DNA of 64,000 nucleotides from Aestuariivivens sediminis (GTDB taxonomy: Bacteria; Bacteroidota; Bacteroidia; Flavobacteriales; Flavobacteriaceae): assembly GCF_022662105.1 (NCBI RefSeq), contig NZ_JAKMCP010000002.1, positions 124,001-188,000 on the forward strand, in the 5' to 3' direction. This document shows, piece after piece, positions 167 to 10,224 of this stretch; within the stretch, counting starts at the first letter, position 1, and each line of letters opens with the position of its first letter. The notes under the pieces were generated by a model. The model ran no database searches and was not told where the DNA came from. It was given only the letters and a program-made list of their open reading frames with translations. The position numbers and the translations under genes are program-made.

Positions 167-955
167 TTACTTTATTTTGGTAAAGGGTATCTTATTTTCA
201 AAGGCATTTAACATAAAATGATCTTCCATACCATTTACAATCCAGGTTTCAATATTCGCTTTTTTAGCTAACCTTGCTGCTTCTATTTTGGACTGCATCC
301 CACCACTTCCATGTGAAGACTTAGAATCTACAACCTGCTTTTCCAAGGCTTTAAAATCCTCAACAACACTTATGGTCTCCGGGTCATGATTTTCTAAGGA
401 ATCCTTAGTGTAAATCCCATAGGTATTGGTGGCAATAATAAATAAATCCACCTCCAAAAGGGAGGCGGTTAAGGCTCCTAACTTATCGTTGTCTCCAAAT
501 TTAATTTCATCTGTAGCCACCGTATCGTTTTCATTAATAATGGGAATGTAATTATTATTGACCAAAACATTAATGGTGTTCACGATATTTGTTTTACTGT
601 CATCTTTCTTAAAATCGGAATAAGATAATAAACACTGCGATGTTAATAAGCCATATTCCCTAAAAATCTCCTGATAAATCCGAATCAAATGGGGTTGACC
701 AATAGACGCCAATGCTTGTTTTACAAAGACATCCTCTTGTTTACTTTCCAGCTTTACAAACTGTTTGGCCACTGCGATAGCCCCGGAACTAACAATAATA
801 AATTCACAAGTGTTTTTGAGCATTGCAATTTGATTTGCAATGTCCTCAATCTTACCTCTGGAAATGTTATTGGTTTCTTTTGTTAAGGTATTGGATCCTA
901 TTTTTAGTAATATGCGTTTCTTTTTATGCACTTTATCGTATCTGTCCGTTGCCAT
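167..955 (-). CDS. proB: Glutamate 5-kinase, short form
   Basis: Phosphorylates glutamate in the first step of proline synthesis (cytosolic amino-acid kinase fold). The N-terminal nucleotide-binding LLKIGSNTLT, the SSGAIAVA segment, the GDNDKLGAL substrate loop and the GSGGMQSKIEAA motif are all present. At 262 aa it lacks the C-terminal PUA domain of the roughly 367-aa E. coli enzyme. Its start overlaps the proA stop by 23 bp, so the two are translationally linked. Feedback inhibition by proline may differ from PUA-containing enzymes; that is inference. Confidence 0.93.
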   Translation of the reverse strand: MATDRYDKVHKKKRILLKIGSNTLTKETNNISRGKIEDIANQIAMLKNTCEFIIVSSGAIAVAKQFVKLESKQEDVFVKQALASIGQPHLIRIYQEIFREYGLLTSQCLLSYSDFKKDDSKTNIVNTINVLVNNNYIPIINENDTVATDEIKFGDNDKLGALTASLLEVDLFIIATNTYGIYTKDSLENHDPETISVVEDFKALEKQVVDSKSSHGSGGMQSKIEAARLAKKANIETWIVNGMEDHFMLNAFENKIPFTKIK

Positions 956-2129
956 GAACGTACCATTTATTGGTTACTAAATGTTGAAGGCCTATGGGCC
1001 CGCGTTGGTGTAATTTATCCGTACTAATAGCCAACTCCCCTCCCAAGCCTAACTGTCCTCCATCGGTAAAACGTGTGGAAGCATTATGGTAGACTGCAGC
1101 AGTATCTACATTTTCCATAAATAACTGCGCTTCTGCTGCATTTGCTGTTATTATTGAGGCCGAATGACCTCCGGAATAGGTATTAATTTTAACTATAGCC
1201 TCCTGATTCGATGCAATCTCACCAATCACAATTTTATAATCCAGAAATTCTTCGTACCACACGTCTTCTGAAGTAATCAAATTAATGTCATGGTTCTTTG
1301 ATAGAGCCTCATCCCCTAATATTTCCACATCAAATTCCTTTAATTTTGAAATCAGATTATGGACAAATTCTTCTTTATTGAACAGGTGTTTATCAATCAA
1401 CACCTTATCCAAGGCATTACATGCCGAAATTTTGGCCGTTTTGGCATTTACAATAATACGTAAGGCCATGTCCAAATCGGCTTCTTTATGCACATATACG
1501 AAATTATTACCACGTCCACTAACAATGACGGGGCACACCGCATGTTGTTTTACAAAAGCAATTAATCGTTCTCCACCACGTGGAACAATTAAATCGACCT
1601 GTTGCGTTGGCTTTTCCAAAAAAGCCCGGGTTTCGGATCGATTAAATTGCAAATATTCCACCCAATCCTGAGATGCTCCTTGCTCCTTTAATGCTTTGTG
1701 CCATAATTCCACAATTTTTAAATTGGAGTTCAAAGATTCCTTTCCTCCTTTTAATAATATTTTATTACCCGACTTAAAGGCTATACCAGCTGCCTCCACG
1801 GTGACATCGGGTCGCGATTCATAAATGATTAATACCGTTCCGAACGATGCTGTTTTATTGTACACTTGCATACCATTGTCATGTGTAAATCGAAATCGTT
1901 CTACACCAACGGGGTCTTCTTGTGATGCTAAATGTGTTACCGATTTTATCATGTCATCCACCTTGGCATCGTCAACCTTTAATCGGTCATACATGGAAAT
2001 GTCATCACCATCATATGCTTGTAAATCGTTCTTGTTGATGGTTATTATGGCTTTCCTTTCTTCTTGTAAAAGTGATGCCATTTTTAATAAAACAGCATTG
2101 CGCTTTTCAATAGACAGTAAAGTGTTCAT
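933..2129 (-). CDS. proA: Gamma-glutamyl phosphate reductase
   Basis: Reduces gamma-glutamyl phosphate to glutamate semialdehyde with NADPH, following ProB. It is an aldehyde-dehydrogenase fold protein of 398 aa, close to the usual 415. The catalytic cysteine is C237 in AKISACNALD; YESRPDVTVEAAG and PRGGERLI are family motifs. It overlaps proB by 23 bp and follows argD by 87 bp. Its product cyclises to pyrroline-5-carboxylate, the ProC substrate encoded two genes upstream. Confidence 0.95.
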   Translation of the reverse strand: MNTLLSIEKRNAVLLKMASLLQEERKAIITINKNDLQAYDGDDISMYDRLKVDDAKVDDMIKSVTHLASQEDPVGVERFRFTHDNGMQVYNKTASFGTVLIIYESRPDVTVEAAGIAFKSGNKILLKGGKESLNSNLKIVELWHKALKEQGASQDWVEYLQFNRSETRAFLEKPTQQVDLIVPRGGERLIAFVKQHAVCPVIVSGRGNNFVYVHKEADLDMALRIIVNAKTAKISACNALDKVLIDKHLFNKEEFVHNLISKLKEFDVEILGDEALSKNHDINLITSEDVWYEEFLDYKIVIGEIASNQEAIVKINTYSGGHSASIITANAAEAQLFMENVDTAAVYHNASTRFTDGGQLGLGGELAISTDKLHQRGPIGLQHLVTNKWYVHGNGQIR

Positions 2130-2216: not shown

Positions 2217-3341
2217 TCACAGCTCCTCTTTTAAGGCTTCAAAAAAGGCATCTACATGCGATTTTTGAAGTGATAATGGTGGGAGAATACGCAAAATATT
2301 CGGGTATTTAGCGCTTCCTGTGAAAATGTTATGTTTATAGATTAATTGTTTCCTGAGATCTGCTATTGGAAATTCAAACGCCAACCCCAGCATTAAACCA
2401 CGTCCTTTTATTTGTTTGATTTGTGGAATGGCTTGGGCCTTTTGAATAAAATATTCTGAAACATCCTTCACATTTTGCATAAGGTTTTCGACCTCCATTA
2501 CTTCCAATACCGACAAAGCAGCAGCACAGGCCAAATGGTTCCCTCCAAAGGTTGTTCCCAATAAACCGTACGACGCTTCAATTTTGGGATGTATTAAAAT
2601 GCCGCCAATTGGAAAACCATTACCCATCCCCTTGGCCATGGAAATTATGTCCGGGGTTATCCCATGCTTTTGAAAAGCAAAAAAATCACCCGTACGACCA
2701 TATCCACATTGAATTTCATCTGCGATATACAGGGCACCATATTGATTGCATAAAGCATTTAATTTTTTATAAAAATCGGTAGGAGCTTCGTCCAGACCGC
2801 CAATACCTTGAATCCCCTCTATAATAATGGCACAGACATCGCCTCCTTTTAAGGCAGTTTCAACGGCATCAATATCCCCTAAATTAGCAAAAATAACATC
2901 TTGCTGGGCATTGATTGGAGCTATGATTTTAGGATTATCCGTTGCAGCAACTGCTGCCGAAGTGCGTCCATGAAACCCATTTTTAAAGGCAATTACCTTT
3001 TTCTTTCCCGTATGGAAGGAAGCTAATTTTAGGGCATTTTCATTGGCCTCTGCGCCAGAATTACATAAAAACAACTGATACTCCTCGCAACCTGAAAGTT
3101 TTCCTAATGCATTCGCTAAAGTGATCTGCAGCGGGTTTTGAATGGAATTGCTGTAAAACCCCAAACGTTCCAACTGACTCCCTACTTTGTCAACATAAGT
3201 AGGGTGGGCATGACCAATGGAAATTACCGCATGACCGCCATACAAATCTAAATATCGCTTCCCCTGGTCATCATAGACCCAAACACCATTTGCCTTTACA
3301 GGGGTAACATCGTATAATGGATAAACGTCAAATAATGGCAT
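2217..3341 (-). CDS. argD: Acetylornithine aminotransferase (class III, PLP)
   Basis: Transaminates N-acylglutamate semialdehyde to N-acylornithine. The NSGAEANE motif (about residues 94-101), the ADEIQCGYGRTG segment and the PLP lysine K237 in SMAKGMGNGFPIGG are clear. I chose the ATG at 3341 (374 aa, MPLFDVYPLY) because it begins at the family N-terminus and lies 1 bp after the proC stop. An upstream in-frame ATG at 3386 would overlap proC and add 15 unlikely residues. It could also act on succinylated substrates. Confidence 0.93.
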   Translation of the reverse strand: MPLFDVYPLYDVTPVKANGVWVYDDQGKRYLDLYGGHAVISIGHAHPTYVDKVGSQLERLGFYSNSIQNPLQITLANALGKLSGCEEYQLFLCNSGAEANENALKLASFHTGKKKVIAFKNGFHGRTSAAVAATDNPKIIAPINAQQDVIFANLGDIDAVETALKGGDVCAIIIEGIQGIGGLDEAPTDFYKKLNALCNQYGALYIADEIQCGYGRTGDFFAFQKHGITPDIISMAKGMGNGFPIGGILIHPKIEASYGLLGTTFGGNHLACAAALSVLEVMEVENLMQNVKDVSEYFIQKAQAIPQIKQIKGRGLMLGLAFEFPIADLRKQLIYKHNIFTGSAKYPNILRILPPLSLQKSHVDAFFEALKEEL

Positions 3342-3342
3342 T

Positions 3343-4137
3343 TTAACTCTTTTTAATTTGATTAATCTTTTCGAATGAGGCCACAATTCCTTGAATCAGA
3401 GCCGAACTTAATCCTTGGTGTTCCATGGCATTAAGGCCTTCAATGGTACATCCGCTTGGAGTAGTTACCCGATCTATTTCCTGCTCGGGATGTCTTCCTG
3501 ATTCTATCAACAAACTGGCAGCTCCATAACAGGTTTGAATGGCTAACTCATGCGCTTGCTCTGCCTCAAAACCCAATTGAATGGCTCCCTGGGTTGTGGC
3601 ACGCACCAAACGCATCCAAAACGCGATACCACTGGCACAAATGACTGTTGCGGCCTGAACCAATTCTTCAGGAATGACCATCGTAACCCCTAATTGGTTA
3701 AAAATCTCTTGTGCCAAAGCCACCTTATCCTGGGCTTTTTGATTGGCTGAGATGCAGGTCATGGACTTACCGATGGAAATAGCTGTATTTGGCATTACTC
3801 GAATGATATTTTTATCGGCTCCAATTAGGCCTTCAATTCGAGCTATATCAACCCCTGCAGCAACGGAGATAACCACATGATTATTCGTAATCAAAGAGGC
3901 TACACTTTCCATTACACCATTAATATGCTTTGGTTGTAAGGCAAAAATGACCATTTCTGATGCCTTAACCGCCAATAGATTATCGCTGGTGACCGTAACA
4001 TTTTCAAGGTTTTTATAAGCATCGACATGCGCTGTATTCTTGTCACTTAAGTACAACGATGTGAAATTGTTGTTTTTAATGAGTCCCTTTGCAACTGAAC
4101 TTCCCAAATTTCCGGTTCCTATGATGGCTATTTTCAT
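3343..4137 (-). CDS. proC: Pyrroline-5-carboxylate reductase
   Basis: Reduces pyrroline-5-carboxylate to proline with NAD(P)H. The N-terminal Rossmann motif IGTGNLGSSVAKGL, the VISVAAG strand, RVMPNTAISIGKSM and the C-terminal dimerisation part (VTTPSGCTIEGLNAME) are intact. Length is 264 aa, typical. It sits between argC and argD, so arginine and proline genes are truly interleaved in one transcription unit. Confidence 0.95.
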   Translation of the reverse strand: MKIAIIGTGNLGSSVAKGLIKNNNFTSLYLSDKNTAHVDAYKNLENVTVTSDNLLAVKASEMVIFALQPKHINGVMESVASLITNNHVVISVAAGVDIARIEGLIGADKNIIRVMPNTAISIGKSMTCISANQKAQDKVALAQEIFNQLGVTMVIPEELVQAATVICASGIAFWMRLVRATTQGAIQLGFEAEQAHELAIQTCYGAASLLIESGRHPEQEIDRVTTPSGCTIEGLNAMEHQGLSSALIQGIVASFEKINQIKKS

Positions 4138-4234: not shown

Positions 4235-5218
4235 TTAAAAGTAATTGGCCTTTAAGTTTAAACCTGTAGTTTCTTCAAAACCAAACATTAAATTCATATT
4301 TTGTAAGGCTTGTCCTGAAGCCCCTTTCAATAAATTATCAATAATACTCGTAATTAACAGTTTGTTATTGTGCTTGTGCAAATGTAGTAGACATTTGTTC
4401 GTATTTACGACCTGCTTTAAATGTAAAACATCTTCCGACACGGATGTAAATTTAGCCGTTTTATAAAATGTTTGGTAAATGGAAGTTGCTTCTTCAATCG
4501 ATCCTTCAAAATGAGTATAAACTGTTGCAAAAATCCCTCTTGAAAAATTACCCCTATTGGGCATAAACAAGATCTCTGAAGTAAAATCATTTTGTAATTG
4601 CCTTACAGACTGATAGATCTCCCCAAGGTGCTGATGTGTAAAGGGTTTGTAATAGGAAAAATTATTATCGCGCCACGGAAAATGTGACGTGGCCGTTAGC
4701 GAAGTCCCTGCCCCAGTGGCCCCTGTAACGGCATTAACATGTACATCTTTGTCCAACAAACCCAAATTGGCTAATGGCAATAATGCCAACTGAATAGCCG
4801 TGGCAAAGCATCCTGGATTAGCAATTTGATGAGCCCTTTTTATGGTTTCCCTTTGTAATTCGGGTAATCCGTAAACAAATTCCATGCCCATCGACTTCTC
4901 ATCGTTTTCTAACCTAAAATCATTGCCCAAATCTATAATCTTTGTCCGTTTAGAAAAGGGATTGGCTTCCAAAAATTTAATTGAATTACCATGACCCAGA
5001 CACAGAAACAACACCTCTACGTCGGGGTTAACGGTATCGGTAAACTTTATATCCAAACTTCCAACTAAATCTTGATGCACCTTGCTAATAGGATTTCCTG
5101 CATTACTGGTGCTATACACAAAATCCAGATGCACCTCAGGATGGTTAATAAGCAAACGTATCAATTCTCCCGCGGTGTAACCGGCCCCACCAATAATGCC
5201 AACTTTAATATTTTTCAT
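4235..5218 (-). CDS. argC: N-acetyl-gamma-glutamyl-phosphate reductase
   Basis: Third step of arginine synthesis: NADPH reduction of N-acyl-glutamyl phosphate. The GIIGGAGYTAGELIRLL dinucleotide motif is at the N-terminus and the catalytic cysteine is C137 in IANPGCFATA; HFPWRDNNFSYY and the C-terminal GASGQALQNMN segment fit the family. Length is 327 aa. It lies 63 bp downstream of argG and 97 bp upstream of proC; neither gap holds an obvious terminator. Confidence 0.95.
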   Translation of the reverse strand: MKNIKVGIIGGAGYTAGELIRLLINHPEVHLDFVYSTSNAGNPISKVHQDLVGSLDIKFTDTVNPDVEVLFLCLGHGNSIKFLEANPFSKRTKIIDLGNDFRLENDEKSMGMEFVYGLPELQRETIKRAHQIANPGCFATAIQLALLPLANLGLLDKDVHVNAVTGATGAGTSLTATSHFPWRDNNFSYYKPFTHQHLGEIYQSVRQLQNDFTSEILFMPNRGNFSRGIFATVYTHFEGSIEEATSIYQTFYKTAKFTSVSEDVLHLKQVVNTNKCLLHLHKHNNKLLITSIIDNLLKGASGQALQNMNLMFGFEETTGLNLKANYF

Positions 5219-5281: not shown

Positions 5282-6457
5282 TTAAGAGTTTACCTGTTGA
5301 TATATCTTGTTTTGATTTCCAAATATTTTAATAAAACCCTTGGCCTCATCGGCTGTCCATCCCTTATTTTCCTCGCCATAACTTCCAAATTTTGCACTCA
5401 TTAGGTCATGTTTAGAGCTAATGCCATCCAATGTAAAATGATAGGGTTTTAAGGTTACAGTAACATCGCCACTTACCTTATCCTGACTGCTTTCTAAAAA
5501 AGCTTCCATATCCCGCATTACGGGATCTAAATATTGACCTTCATGCAAATGCATACCATAAAAACTGGCTATATATTCTTTATGTTGAAGCTGCCATTTG
5601 GTTAAAGTATGCTTTTCCAATAAATGGTGGGCTTTTATCGTGATTAATGCTGCCGCAGCTTCAAAACCTACACGCCCTTTTATGCCAACTATGGTATCCC
5701 CTACGTGGATATCTCTACCAATGGCATAAGCCGATGCGATAGTATTGAGTGTTTCAATATTTATCTCCGGATCGTTTTCAACACCATTTACGGCCACTAA
5801 TTCACCCTTTTTAAAACGTAATTTTACCTTTTCATCTTCGGCATGTTTAATCTGAGAGGGATAGGCTTCTTCAGGTAATGGTTTGTTGGAGGTCAAGGTT
5901 TCTGAACCACCAACACTTGTTCCCCACAATCCCTTGTTAATAGAATATTTGGCTTTTTCCCAAGACGTGTCAATACCATTGGCCTTTAAATAGTCTATTT
6001 CCTGCTGTCTGGTTAATTTCTCGTCCCTAATGGGTGTGATAATTTGAATGTTTGGCGCAAGGGTTTGAAAAATCATGTCGAAACGAACTTGGTCATTTCC
6101 GGCACCCGTACTTCCATGCGCTATATAGTCGGCATCTATACTTTTGGCGTATTCAACAATTTCTATGGCCTGGATTATACGTTCAGCACTAACCGATAAT
6201 GGATAGGTATTATTTTTTAATACATTCCCAAAAATTAAATACTTGACTACTTTTTGATAGAAGGTAGCGACAGCATCTATGTTTTTGTAGGTAGCGACGC
6301 CCATTTTATAAGCATTGCTTTCAATATGTTCTATTTCCTTTTTTGTAAAACCCCCGGTGTTTACACTTACGGCATGTACCTCAAATTTCTTTGACAAACT
6401 CACTGCACAATACGAAGTGTCCAATCCGCCACTATAGGCGATTACTAATTTTTTCAT
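5282..6457 (-). CDS. argG: Argininosuccinate synthase
   Basis: Joins citrulline and aspartate using ATP. The PP-loop YSGGLDTSY (residues 8-16), AHGSTGAGNDQVRFD and SINKGLWGTSVGG are diagnostic. At 391 aa it is the normal size. It starts 4 bp after the stop of the upstream GNAT gene, so those two are co-translated. Its place near the head of the operon is the usual Bacteroidota order (argG, argC, argD, then argF'). Confidence 0.95.
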   Translation of the reverse strand: MKKLVIAYSGGLDTSYCAVSLSKKFEVHAVSVNTGGFTKKEIEHIESNAYKMGVATYKNIDAVATFYQKVVKYLIFGNVLKNNTYPLSVSAERIIQAIEIVEYAKSIDADYIAHGSTGAGNDQVRFDMIFQTLAPNIQIITPIRDEKLTRQQEIDYLKANGIDTSWEKAKYSINKGLWGTSVGGSETLTSNKPLPEEAYPSQIKHAEDEKVKLRFKKGELVAVNGVENDPEINIETLNTIASAYAIGRDIHVGDTIVGIKGRVGFEAAAALITIKAHHLLEKHTLTKWQLQHKEYIASFYGMHLHEGQYLDPVMRDMEAFLESSQDKVSGDVTVTLKPYHFTLDGISSKHDLMSAKFGSYGEENKGWTADEAKGFIKIFGNQNKIYQQVNS

Positions 6458-6461
6458 GATA

Positions 6462-7082
6462 TTATTGTTTCTTATCCTTTTTTAAAAACATGGTTTCCTT
6501 AATATGCTTGAGCCTATTGAAAACCTTTTCCTTAACCAACTTTCTTTTATTTTTATCTTTTGCTTTAGGATCGTAGAGCATGCCCGTACACAAACACATT
6601 TTTCTATTAGTGCGTGTTAGTACGTCATAGTTTTTACATGTCTGACATCCATCCCAAAACGTTGGATCGTCTGTTAATTCAGAAAATGGAACTGGCTTAT
6701 AACCCAAATCACTATTCATTTTCATTACGGCCAATCCTGTGGTTATACTGAATACTTTGGCATCAGGAAATTTGTTTCTCGAATGCTCAAATATTTTATG
6801 CTTTATTTTTTTTGCAAGGCCTTCTCCTCTATAATCGGGATGTACAATCAAACCTGAATTCGCAACAAATTTTCCATGACCCCACTTCTCTATATAACAA
6901 AATCCAGCAAATTTATCACCATCCAAAGCAATTACGGCATTACCATTTTCCATTTTAGTGGCAATGTATTCTGGGGTACGTCTAGCTATACCAGTACCTC
7001 TTACCATAGCGGATTCTGCAATGGTATCGCAAATAGTTTGTGCATATTTAATATGTGATGTATCGGCTATTACTACCTTCAT
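6462..7082 (-). CDS. GNAT N-acetyltransferase, first gene of arginine/proline operon; possible N-acylglutamate synthase
   Basis: A 206-aa GNAT-fold protein. The acetyl-CoA loop is visible as YRGEGLAKK (about residues 84-92), preceded by the strand SGLIVHPD. A C-terminal extension has two close cysteine pairs (C146/C149 and C163/C165), a possible metal knuckle, followed by a Lys-rich tail. It opens the operon and is tightly linked to argG. No other N-acetylglutamate synthase is visible here, so it may supply the acyl group to glutamate; that is inference. ATG at 7082 chosen over a TTG at 7088. Confidence 0.75.
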   Translation of the reverse strand: MKVVIADTSHIKYAQTICDTIAESAMVRGTGIARRTPEYIATKMENGNAVIALDGDKFAGFCYIEKWGHGKFVANSGLIVHPDYRGEGLAKKIKHKIFEHSRNKFPDAKVFSITTGLAVMKMNSDLGYKPVPFSELTDDPTFWDGCQTCKNYDVLTRTNRKMCLCTGMLYDPKAKDKNKRKLVKEKVFNRLKHIKETMFLKKDKKQ

Positions 7083-7307
7083 TTCCAAGTCTGTATTAAT
7101 GTCAATTATGATCTCATTTTTTTAATTCTGAACTGGACTCACCTTGTTCAATAAACGATTATACACCCTTACGGGCGACGAGGAAAATTGTGGCGCATAG
7201 GATTATTGTTAATGACTCTATTAACTGTATTTTGAAATGCTATGATGAAGTTTTTGGACAATTTGAAAAAAATTAAAATTACGTTTGGTTTTGGTCAATT
7301 CGGAGTG

Positions 7308-7379
7308 TTAGAAACAGCGGCGACGACGCACCGGTAAACAGGGTATAGACCTACGTATTTTATTTTTTAAATTTTTCAT
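7308..7379 (-). CDS. Arg-rich leader peptide of the arginine/proline operon (candidate)
   Basis: A 23-codon ORF with an ATG start 226 bp upstream of the GNAT start codon on the same strand. It begins MKNLKNKIRRSIP and ends PVRRRRCF followed by TAA. Six of 23 codons are Arg, including a run of four (CGT CGT CGC CGC) just before the end, as expected of a leader peptide that senses charged tRNA-Arg. A -7-like box (TATATTCG, plus-strand 7410-7417) lies about 30 bp upstream. I see no intrinsic terminator between it and the GNAT gene, so the mechanism is open (Rho, RNA stability or translation coupling). Confidence 0.55.
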   Translation of the reverse strand: MKNLKNKIRRSIPCLPVRRRRCF

Positions 7380-7587
7380 GATGTAAAACTATTAATTTAT
7401 TTAACATTACGAATATAAAGTCATTACTTTTTGATGAAAATTACCAATATTGAACAAAAAATACACATTTGTTAAAAATAACGAAAGTTTTTGGGTTACA
7501 ATTTTGATTTTAAAAAAGACCCCAACTGTTGAAGCTCAGCTTTCAGATCCAATTTTAATGGGTAATGTTTTATATTAGCTTTATAAA

Positions 7588-10224
7588 ATGAAGTTTCGCC
7601 ATTCCATAGTAATACGTCTTGCTCTGTTTTTTACAGCCTTAATTATATTTTCTATTTTATTGTCCGGATATTTGGTTTTCGAAAAGTCTTCAAAAGTCAT
7701 TACCGAATATGCCAGGAATCGTATTATTCATGAGTCTGAATTAGCGGAACAGGCATTTTATGCCTTGCTGAATGAAGTCTCAAATGATATTGCTGTAATC
7801 GCCTCAAGCCCAACATTAAACAATTATGTAAGTAACCCGTCAACAAAAGCTGCTATAGATGTTAATACTCTATTTAAAAGCCTATTACATAATAAAGCAT
7901 CTTATTTTCAAATACGCTATATAGGAATTGAAAATAATGGTGAGGAAATTATTCGTTTTGATAAGAAAAATGGACATGTCTTTAAATCGGATGACCTTCA
8001 ACAAAAAGGAAATCGGGATTATTTCAAGGAAGCCATTGCGATTGAGAAAGGTGAACTTTATTTTTCAAAGATTAACTTAAACGAAGAGTATGGCATAGTT
8101 AGTGAACCTTATATTCCTACTCTAAGGGCCGCTAGCCCCATTTATAACAAGGCTGACCAAATTACTGGTCTTGTCATTATTAATGTAGACTTAAGTGATC
8201 TGTACCAAACCCTGGATAAAATTTCAAAAGAAGAATCTCAATTATACATAATAAACAAACAGGGTGAGTATTTATATGCCTTAGAAAAAGACAAACTTTT
8301 TGCGTCCCAAACAGGTAAAACAACTAATTTTTATTTGGATTTTGAAATTGATGCGACATCCTCCCTGGACCCAAATAGCATCGAAACCGGGTTTCCAATA
8401 CGTTTAAACCCTAATGTTCTCAGCTATGTCATCCCCCTGAATTATTTTAAGAACAAGCGCAACCTCTATTTAATAGCCTTGGCAAAAAAGAATGTTTTAT
8501 TACAAAGTGCACATGAGGTTAGAGACAACAGCCTCCAAACACTGCTTCTGGTTTGTCTGGCCTGCATGCTGTTAACATGGGTTTTTGTAAGTCTGATTTC
8601 CAAAAAAATCAACCAAATCACAAAGGCCATTAAAAACTATGATGAAGGCTTGACCAGCGACATTCCGTTACCTGTAAATAGAAAAGATGAGATTGGGGTA
8701 TTGGCTAGAACATTTAAAAAAATGAAAGCTAAAATCGACCAAAATGTTAAGGAGCTTAATATTGCACTTGCAAAAGAAAAATTGGCCAAACAGCAACGCG
8801 ATGATTTTTTACAAAATATGAGCCATGAATTACGGACGCCTCTTAATGCCATTTTGGGATTCAGCCAATTACTCAAAAAGAATAATCCATCGTCATCACA
8901 GACCCCAATTATAGAATCTTTAAACAGAAGTGCTCATAATTTAGCCGGATTGGTGTATGACGTTCTGGAGCATAAAAAATTAGTGGAGGGTACATTACAT
9001 ATGGAATACCAACCTACTAATATAGCACAACTATTAAAAGATATATACGCCAGTTATCAGTACGATGCCATTACAAAAGGGTTAGATTTTAACATTGAAT
9101 TAAACCAGGAACTTGAAGAAAACATGTTCCAAACAGATCCATTAAGATTATCTCAAATGATTACTAATTTGGTGGTGAATGCCTTAAAGTTTACCTCAGA
9201 AGGAGAAGTTAAACTATGGGCGAAAATAAATCATACTACACCAAAAGAACTAGAAATAAAAGTTATAGATACGGGTATTGGTATTCTTCCAGAAAATATG
9301 GACAAGATTAACAACCGTTATTTTCAAGAGAACCAGGATCTATCCGGTCGTTACGGAGGGTATGGCCTGGGTCTATCGATTGTAAAACAATTAGCCACTT
9401 TATTTGGTGGATACTTAAGGGTTGATTCCAAAAAAGGCACAGGATCGATATTTCGAGTGACCCTCCCCATTGTACCTGCCGAATCCGTTAAGGTCACAGA
9501 AGAACCCTTGGTAAAAACAGATGAAGTTCCCTTATTGCATAAGGTCTACAAAATACTTCATATTGAGGACGACATGCCAACCAGAGAACTTATAAAGCAT
9601 GTTTTCCCCTACCAATTTATCGAATTAAAACAGGTCAGTAAGTTACATGACGCAGCAAGGTATTTAGATAAAACGAAGCCAGATCTTGTTTTGAGTGATC
9701 TATTACTTAATGATGTTAATTTAAAACCCGAGTTAGAGGAATGGAAGCGTTCTAAAAAAATGACCTGTCCTGTTATTCTGATTTCTGCTTTAGAACCAGA
9801 AGTGATGCAACACATAACCCCTAATTATTTTCAAAAACCATTTCAAGTAGATGAGTTAAAGGATTATACCTTTAAAATTTTAGGAGCAAATGAATTTTCA
9901 ATACCGAATTTTTCCAATGTTTATAGTAATTATGATAATAACAAAGAAAAAATAGTTCGAGTTATTAATTTGCTGATTGTTGAATTTGAAACCTACAAAA
10001 ATCGTATTGAAAAGGCGGTCTCAAACAAAGACCAGGAGGAATGGGATGCCATTTTACATAAATTAATCACTCATATAAATAATTTGGAATTGCGTTCTCT
10101 TTCAGCACTATTGCCGGCAAAAATTGAAGCCCTGACCCTAAATGAGCTATCGGCTATCCAAAATGCCTTCGCCTATTACTTGTGCTGTTTTAGGGTAGAA
10201 AAAAGAATTAATTTAAAAGACTAA
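7588..10224 (+). CDS. Hybrid sensor histidine kinase (sensor, HAMP, HisKA, HATPase, REC, Hpt-like)
   Basis: An 878-aa inner-membrane phosphorelay kinase. Domains in order: TM1 (about 10-30), a large periplasmic sensor resembling a Cache domain (35-310), TM2 (316-337), HAMP, HisKA with phospho-His H413 in NMSHELRTP, HATPase with DTGIGI and GGYGLGLSIVK, and a receiver with acidic pair D661/D662, phospho-Asp D704 and K750. A C-terminal helical part carries ILHKLITHINNLE (H824), which resembles an Hpt histidine but lacks the usual KGS. It converges with the LytTR regulator gene (17-bp tail overlap), a likely partner. The signal is unknown. Confidence 0.9.
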   Translation: MKFRHSIVIRLALFFTALIIFSILLSGYLVFEKSSKVITEYARNRIIHESELAEQAFYALLNEVSNDIAVIASSPTLNNYVSNPSTKAAIDVNTLFKSLLHNKASYFQIRYIGIENNGEEIIRFDKKNGHVFKSDDLQQKGNRDYFKEAIAIEKGELYFSKINLNEEYGIVSEPYIPTLRAASPIYNKADQITGLVIINVDLSDLYQTLDKISKEESQLYIINKQGEYLYALEKDKLFASQTGKTTNFYLDFEIDATSSLDPNSIETGFPIRLNPNVLSYVIPLNYFKNKRNLYLIALAKKNVLLQSAHEVRDNSLQTLLLVCLACMLLTWVFVSLISKKINQITKAIKNYDEGLTSDIPLPVNRKDEIGVLARTFKKMKAKIDQNVKELNIALAKEKLAKQQRDDFLQNMSHELRTPLNAILGFSQLLKKNNPSSSQTPIIESLNRSAHNLAGLVYDVLEHKKLVEGTLHMEYQPTNIAQLLKDIYASYQYDAITKGLDFNIELNQELEENMFQTDPLRLSQMITNLVVNALKFTSEGEVKLWAKINHTTPKELEIKVIDTGIGILPENMDKINNRYFQENQDLSGRYGGYGLGLSIVKQLATLFGGYLRVDSKKGTGSIFRVTLPIVPAESVKVTEEPLVKTDEVPLLHKVYKILHIEDDMPTRELIKHVFPYQFIELKQVSKLHDAARYLDKTKPDLVLSDLLLNDVNLKPELEEWKRSKKMTCPVILISALEPEVMQHITPNYFQKPFQVDELKDYTFKILGANEFSIPNFSNVYSNYDNNKEKIVRVINLLIVEFETYKNRIEKAVSNKDQEEWDAILHKLITHINNLELRSLSALLPAKIEALTLNELSAIQNAFAYYLCCFRVEKRINLKD

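Follow-up and report, generated by a model that had tools for sequence, protein, structure and literature searches.

Tandem arginine-codon leaders and a conserved two-hairpin RNA ahead of the arginine operon of Aestuariivivens sediminis: a candidate ribosome-gated arginine sensor

What does a short open reading frame rich in arginine codons do ahead of the arginine/proline operon of Aestuariivivens sediminis, and what else does the leader contain that could let arginine supply bear on the genes downstream? The operon lies on the minus strand of the window, by which we mean the whole 64-kb stretch of NZ_JAKMCP010000002.1 (assembly GCF_022662105.1) that was analysed. Its features are collected in Table 1. 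Beyond the window, the same strand carries genes for an N-acetylornithine carbamoyltransferase, argB, an ArgE/DapE deacylase and argH (L174); argB and argH score above cut-off, the carbamoyltransferase just under it (284/288 bits) and the deacylase below its NCBIfam cut-off. Together these are likely to make an operon of 11 genes. The NCBIfam argG models match the second gene below their curated cut-offs, and its name rests on Pfam. A hybrid histidine kinase gene (7588-10224, plus strand) is divergent from the operon, and the intergenic region is common to the kinase gene and the leader.

Table 1. Features of the arginine/proline operon and its leader, in positions of the window
Feature	Position	Strand	Details
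Candidate -7 promoter element	7384..7391	-	TAGTTTTA, 4 nt ahead of the ORF1 ATG
ORF1	7308..7379	-	Peptide MKNLKNKIRRSIPCLPVRRRRCF; ATG start, TAA stop, 23 codons
Small hairpin from ORF1 Arg codons	7318..7333	-	CGGUG-CGUCGU-CGCCG; terminator-like, then CUGUUUCUAA
ORF2	7169..7261	-	Peptide MSKNFIIAFQNTVNRVINNNPMRHNFPRRP; TTG start, ends FPRRP-stop; stop codon 7171-7169
H0 hairpin	7208..7225	-	GUUAAU-AGAGUC-AUUAAC; ends 30 nt before H1
H1 hairpin	7164..7177	-	CGCCC-GUAA-GGGUG; loop holds the ORF2 stop codon (7171-7169)
H2 hairpin	7128..7151	-	Covarying stem, 5' bulge, tip GG-UGAGU-CC (7143-7135)
R1 match (H1 + H2)	7127..7183	-	E 5.1e-11
GNAT-family acetyltransferase, operon gene 1	6462..7082	-	PF00583 above cut-off; ATG at 7082
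argG, argininosuccinate synthase	5282..6457	-	Pfam Arginosuc_synth domains above cut-off
argC	4235..5218	-	TIGR01850 above cut-off
proC	3343..4137	-	TIGR00112 above cut-off
argD-like acetylornithine transaminase	2217..3386	-	Best match TIGR00707, below curated cut-off
proA	933..2129	-	Above cut-off
proB	167..955	-	Gene run goes on past the window edge (L174)

For comparison, 98 of 149 genomes of the same family proved to contain the GNAT gene, and the stretch upstream of it was read in all 98. A second set of 80 named loci (L235-L314) overlaps these genomes, so counts from the named loci are not independent of the others. The nearest named relatives are Aestuariivivens species, with GNAT identities of 90-94%; ORF1 peptides are identical between the three other genomes of the genus and three named Aestuariivivens loci.

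A sequence-only reading of this DNA had picked out ORF1 as an arginine-sensing leader peptide, and the ORF is as it was described: 23 codons from ATG to TAA at 7379-7308 on the minus strand, with six arginine codons, four of them in a row. It ends 225 nt from the GNAT ATG (7082). The same reading had suggested comparing the leaders of related flavobacteria, and in that comparison the arginine run proves to be conserved. An Arg-rich ORF 15-45 codons long, with its end 205-300 nt ahead of the GNAT gene, occupies the ORF1 place in 49 of the 98 loci. Five dinucleotide shuffles gave counts of 1, 1, 1, 6 and 3, and the reverse complement of the same sequence gave 1. The 49 include at least four false cases: L019, where the ORF is ORF2, and L033, L057 and L079, where it is apparently the tail of an upstream gene. 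All four fall away when a promoter-like TANNTTT[GA] is also required just before the start; 38 loci then remain, and no shuffle of the five shows the combination. The element in the window, TAGTTTTA, differs in its last base from the family motif TANNTTTG, which does not occur exactly in the window; among the 98 loci the exact motif precedes the start of ORF1 in 12, and in 19 it precedes an ATG in the position of ORF2. In each of the four genomes of the genus, either TAGTTTTA or TAGCTTTA is present. Since the ORF and its arginine run are kept in relatives and a promoter-like -7 element comes shortly before the ORF, the sequence points neither to a lack of conservation nor to transcription starting downstream of ORF1, the two findings that would speak against it, and a conserved arginine-codon leader ahead of the arginine operon is supported.

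The named loci add to this picture of ORF1. It is found in 75 of 80, with a start that reads ATG in most of them under a script that preferred ATG for ORF1, and in 33 sequences the ratio of observed to expected synonymous changes is 1.78 in its own frame versus 1.19 and 0.69 in the other two. The hairpin formed by its arginine codons has arms that read CGGUA/UACCG in L215, a compensatory change seen by eye, and a hairpin ahead of the ORF1 stop falls within the locus's own top 10% in 16 of 45 loci. An A/U-rich ACGTAATTTTAATTTTTTTCA, conserved in the genus, lies ahead of the ORF2 start in the gap between the two ORFs (7307-7262); ribosomes might land there. By eye, a stretch resembling CUUCUAUUU follows both ORF1 and H1 in some relatives.

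The proposal stands, then, insofar as ORF1 appears to be an arginine leader, but ORF1 is only the clade-restricted part of the system, and the more widely conserved sensor would consist of a second leader ORF, ORF2, together with the hairpins H1 and H2. We regard ORF1 as best read, from its sequence, as an additional sensor placed upstream. ORF2 is the more widely conserved of the two. Its end usually lies about 80-95 nt ahead of the GNAT gene and typically reads RRP-stop (98 loci). Among the named loci, its place holds an ORF of at least 20 codons in 73 of 80, whose start, taken as the most upstream one in frame, is GTG in 40, TTG in 22 and ATG in 11. In the four genomes of the genus ORF2 is open from TTG in every case; an internal ATG at 7198 is an alternative and could be the true start in this clade.

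The case for ORF2 as an arginine sensor lies in its end. The last 12 codons before the stop hold a mean of 4.08 arginines versus 1.17 in shuffles (86 loci), and at least three in 80 of 86; for these counts the frame with the most arginine was chosen in real and shuffled sequences alike, and one of 87 loci, L097, dropped out when the program found no H1 in it. Arginine occupies position -2 in 78, -3 in 66 and -4 in 38 of the 86 loci; some of these positions lie outside H1. Proline immediately precedes the stop in 71 of 86 and phenylalanine stands at -5 in 29 of 86. Over codons 1-24 there is no preference for synonymous changes in the ORF2 frame (0.94; frame 1 gives 1.55), which makes the long, TTG-started form of ORF2 less certain than the Arg-rich end.

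The choice among arginine codons is itself informative. At ORF2 ends 325 of 351 arginine codons are CGC or CGT, and in ORF1 (45 loci, leaving out L019, L033, L057 and L079) 192 of 231 are; in the GNAT genes of the same loci these two codons account for 170 of 762, and the most used codon is AGA (352/762). AGA also supplies 67 of 202 arginine codons in 17 genes of the window. From the bias in the leaders it would follow that a single arginine tRNA is the species sensed, probably the isoacceptor that reads CGC and CGU.

Around and beyond the ORF2 stop the RNA can fold into two hairpins. The 5' arm of H1 is made of the end of the last arginine codons and the proline codon, and H2 begins 17 nt downstream of the stop codon; between the stop codon and the GGTGNG tip there are 27-30 nt in 68 of 86 loci. 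The consensus of the H2 tip is GG-UGNGU-CC. A stem of at least 4 bp underlies it in 87 of 87 loci, versus 64% on average after exchange of arms among loci and 16% after shuffling of the letters, a result that applies to motif-bearing loci, since these 87 were chosen by the tip motif GG[TC]GNG[TC][CT]C, which 11 of the 98 lacked. In an alignment of 32 loci, A2, 94% of the cells are paired, and 18 cells carry double changes compared with 3.9 in shuffles; the double changes fall on five of eight H2 pairs and one of five H1 pairs, and the H1 pairs, at 86% of cells, stay below those of H2. Of 37 loci in which the bulge is two bases long, A2 takes 32; L042, L071 and L083 were omitted by hand, L097 for want of the H1 pattern and L092 after a trial alignment. 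An earlier, badly gapped alignment, A1, gave only four pairs with RNAalifold; it had misaligned the H2 stems, and its result was therefore set aside in favor of A2.

Folding energy is a less discriminating guide in the window. The leader as a whole folds no better than shuffles (z +1.02), and the individual values are -2.99 for H1, -0.40 for the stretch of H1 and H2, -0.86 for H2 alone and -1.11 for H0, so that energy by itself singles out only H1. The third hairpin, H0, lies within ORF2, and its spacing of 30 nt from H1 is about one ribosome footprint. An H0-like hairpin falls in the locus's own top 10% in 42 of 86 loci, where 8.6 would be expected; part of this excess may be background, because a control stretch upstream reaches 15 of 85, above the expected tenth (a stretch after H2 gives 9 of 76). 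A partner-swap scan for pairing at fixed offsets found covariation in H1 and H2 only, with a z of 0.5 for cross pairing of H0 or H1 to H2; the scan missed H0 and did not extend to ORF1, and because it misses H0, helices with variable spacing could escape it too.

A covariance model, R1, built from the 32 loci of A2, with the window not included, allows the specificity of this two-hairpin RNA to be judged. In the source genome the match in the window is the only one that reaches E <= 0.01. Across the family R1 matches 93 of 149 genomes, all 32 building loci included, and 91 of 94 matches sit 40-240 nt upstream of a GNAT gene on the same strand; among GNAT loci outside the training set 59 of 66 match, leaving 7 of the 98 GNAT loci without a match. 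Of the named loci, 77 of 80 match. One genus of the family, g128, has no match at all, and in a sample of the phylum the 13 matching genomes of 296 are all Flavobacteriaceae. Of the three remaining matches, that in G074 (E 0.003) and a second one in G075 (E 0.005) are weak; in G084 a match of E 9.6e-13 stands ahead of an ORF of another kind, after which come ORFs that, by reading, are argG-like and argC-like. That ORF of another kind (L217:2354-2938), between leader and argG, encodes 194 aa without a Pfam match, and no GNAT match was found there.

Rfam models give no hit at gathering score in window positions 6400-7700, where ES036 alone appears (E 0.1; 22.9 bits, with 37.6 required), and nothing at E <= 0.1 in six further loci. 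A T-box or another cis-regulatory RNA known to Rfam was accordingly rejected for this stretch, and H1-H2 would appear to be an RNA element outside the known Rfam families. Two other readings of H2 were considered and rejected. It does not seem to be a general element of many operons: AGGTGNGTCC occurs at seven places in the genome, and only the one at the arginine operon is in context. The resemblance of AGGUGA to a Shine-Dalgarno sequence might suggest a bait for the 3' end of 16S rRNA; this was rejected by reasoning alone, because the third base of UGNGU varies and the G after it is invariant.

Arginine-codon leaders reach across the class, and the structured RNA is distributed within the family. 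Outside Flavobacteriaceae, the analysis covered 56 of 96 matching loci, a selection made for breadth across families and without L123 and L124, where the contig ended; an Arg-rich leader precedes the same gene in 30 of the 56, versus 0-2 in shuffles. These leaders, which lack H2, come from 18 of the 33 other families sampled in the class, and many of the outside loci have a hairpin at the end of the leader (27 were folded, a few from Flavobacteriaceae). In none of the 56 does the H2 motif occur at its expected position; the one loose match, GGTGTGTTC in L147, lies elsewhere, at -193. Because the outside loci have arginine leaders and none has H2 in place, the arginine leader looks older than H2. 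In L128 and L142 (family f16) a further hairpin, whose tip is of the UACG type (TTTCCC-TACGC-GGGAAA in L128), was seen by eye after the arginine leader, and this may be a counterpart of H2.

How, then, could such a leader act? It has what characterizes leader-peptide regulation in the broad sense, namely a conserved short upstream ORF with an excess of codons for the product amino acid. A classical attenuator also has an intrinsic terminator between leader ORF and first gene, and no such terminator was found here: a scan of 7050-7480 called none at H1 or H2 and none between H2 and the gene, its sole terminator-like match (7333-7318; 0.1 expected in shuffles) lying within ORF1. The sequence-only reading had seen no terminator downstream of ORF1, which is correct for H1, H2 and the stretch to the gene, but it had overlooked that this same stretch holds ORF2 and the two-hairpin RNA. 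The hisG leader of the same genome, with a 12-pair intrinsic terminator and a U-rich tail, served as positive control for the scan; a canonical terminator at H1 or H2 in the window was rejected, as the scan calls the his terminator but neither of these hairpins. That leader, MNFILTHHHFQICSQAK (L226 1900-2400, minus strand) followed by the 12-pair terminator, looks like a classical his attenuator, and a His-rich leader ORF stands ahead of hisG in 15 of 15 loci read.

On balance, we think it somewhat probable that the arginine operon leader is a ribosome-gated arginine sensor with tandem leaders, attenuator-like but non-classical. From the arrangement of codons and hairpins we infer that the ORFs are translated and that ribosomes slow on them, and with this the sign of the regulation, a reading factor and the step controlled. 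One promoter would give a transcript carrying ORF1 and then ORF2, two sensor ORFs in series. When charged tRNA-Arg is scarce, the ribosome would slow on the arginine codons of ORF2 and, because these codons form the entry and the 5' arm of H1, a slowed ribosome would keep H1 open, as would one standing at the stop codon; the ribosome itself would thus be the simplest switch. When arginine is plentiful, the ribosome would terminate at the UAA in the H1 loop and depart, and H1 would then fold beside H2, which at its distance from the stop should fold with or without a ribosome present; the size of a ribosome footprint underlies this geometry. We propose that the folded H1 beside H2 is the OFF state, which arginine shortage would lift. 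OFF would probably work by way of a factor recognizing the conserved tip of H2, with less elongation or less mRNA survival into the operon as the result, and H0, upstream of H1, probably paces RNA polymerase or the ribosome. Output could run through termination directly at H1, through decay of the RNA, or through Rho or coupling at the level of translation; a Rho-dependent or translational output was also what the sequence-only reading had put forward.

It is also possible, and we put this more tentatively, that H1-H2 represents a new ribosome-gated class in which the factor reads the tip only beside a folded H1 and the two ORFs sharpen the response. An antiterminator would be unnecessary in such a device, since the arginine codons of the sensor ORF would themselves form one arm of the switch helix. 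The reader of the tip might then be an RNA-binding protein, or perhaps RNA polymerase itself.

A simpler device would be H1 and a U-rich linker acting as a weak intrinsic terminator, occluded by a ribosome on the arginine codons, which would require neither a factor nor the H2 tip. The placement of arginine codons within the 5' arm of H1 would fit this, as would the longer H1 followed by U-runs in L086 and L089 and the GACCC-UCAG-GGGUC-UAAUAUUUUUU of L170, from another family; in actinobacterial ilvB leaders, the control codons are reported to overlap candidate terminators (PMC1262725). We consider it unlikely: in the window H1 has five pairs and is followed by UAUAAUCG, with no U-run, and the scan that calls the his terminator does not call H1. 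Such a terminator would also leave the conserved H2 and its covarying stem unexplained.

The same conserved GG-UGNGU-CC tip and covarying stem, with one strong match per matching genome, at the arginine locus, could instead be taken to mark the site of an autoregulatory protein or an RNA that binds a ligand and senses arginine directly, the ORFs serving just to load ribosomes. This is improbable, as it leaves unexplained the arginine enrichment outside H1, the codon choice and the arginine leaders elsewhere that have no H2. A classical attenuator, with mutually exclusive antiterminator and terminator and the terminator located where it went unrecognized, would be in keeping with leader ORFs built of control codons, an upstream H0, a his attenuator of classical appearance in the same genome and the terminator-like match in ORF1. 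The terminator is lacking at H1 and H2 and from H2 to the gene, however, and no alternative helix covaries in the scanned stretches of a scan that missed H0 and left ORF1 outside, so that we rate it as quite improbable.

Nascent-peptide arrest deserves separate consideration. SpeFL and TnaC are leader peptides that sense their own ligands by arrest of the nascent chain, and the RRP-stop peptide of ORF2 could in principle sense free arginine or ornithine in the exit tunnel. The frequent proline before the stop and phenylalanine at -5, and the conservation of the ORF1 peptide beyond its arginines, would be expected of such a peptide. Against this, the proline codon is part of the H1 arm and, judged by eye, is replaced where H1 shifts, and the first 24 codons of ORF2 bear no sign of selection for particular amino acids; we hold arrest to be very improbable. 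The HIRRT*HIMM core of SpeFL/orf34 (DUF2618) was not seen in the ORF1 or ORF2 peptides when these were read by eye. Finally, that ORF1 is a functionless chance ORF, as its absence from many loci with ORF2 and H1-H2 might suggest, is scarcely credible given the strict count against shuffles, its presence in the named loci and its synonymous ratio.

The proposed ribosome-gated sensor can be set beside known systems, using excerpts of the papers cited. Like classical his and trp attenuators, including the organism's own his leader, the arginine leader has a short promoter-proximal ORF rich in codons for the product. Whereas the his leader has a strong intrinsic terminator, the arginine leader has none of canonical form at H1 or H2, and it differs further in having two ORFs, arginine codons inside a hairpin, a conserved H2 tip and no covarying antiterminator in the scanned stretches. 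In the excerpted account of the Salmonella speF leader, orf34 likewise senses arginine through consecutive arginine codons, and paused and finished ribosomes lead to different folds just past the stop, much as we propose here (PMC6386406). That system differs, according to the same excerpts, in controlling ornithine decarboxylase, in an output through RNase G and Rho, in its HIRRT*HIMM core and in the single leader ORF described (PMC6386406). Actinobacterial ilvB leaders, in the portion cited, resemble the arginine leader in that their leader ORF ends in a hairpin overlapped by the control codons, but they respond to branched-chain amino acids and their hairpins are candidate terminators with U-runs (PMC1262725). 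The ilvB-II motif, as excerpted, is another conserved RNA bearing a uORF ahead of a biosynthetic operon, again for branched-chain amino acids (PMC10272879). The rbfL leader of Staphylococcus aureus also senses arginine limitation through arginine codons of a leader ORF, but there low arginine leads to a block of the ribosome-binding site of a biofilm regulator, and the excerpts mention neither a biosynthetic operon nor a two-hairpin RNA (PMC13009471).

Nearer to our organism, attenuation has been inferred at amino-acid operons of Flavobacterium psychrophilum, of the same family, where pheA and hisG are among the conserved 5' elements; an arginine leader is not mentioned in the excerpts from that transcriptome (PMC9723704). 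In Bacteroides thetaiotaomicron, short ORFs in long 5' UTRs resemble leader peptides, and the excerpts make no mention of arginine (PMC7366714). An analysis of premature terminators contains, in the portion cited, no word beginning Bacteroid or Flavobacter (PMC2965389). Ribosome profiling in F. johnsoniae describes, in the cited part, mRNAs without Shine-Dalgarno sequences (PMC6847099). Among the matches listed in our search of the literature on attenuation and structured RNA, the scope of which excluded subscription papers, preprints and supplements, no arginine leader is described in Bacteroidota.

Taken together, the comparison across genomes argues for a real, conserved leader system, a variation on leader-peptide regulation with an unassigned RNA element at its core. 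Because there is one strong site per matching genome, the arginine leader is directly testable, and the conserved H2 tip offers a bait for the candidate reading factor. If our proposal is true, these bacteria would sense an amino acid without a terminator, and would do so with mRNAs that lack Shine-Dalgarno sequences. Should H1-H2 prove to be a ribosome-gated class, arginine supply would control an 11-gene operon of Flavobacteriaceae without an intrinsic terminator.
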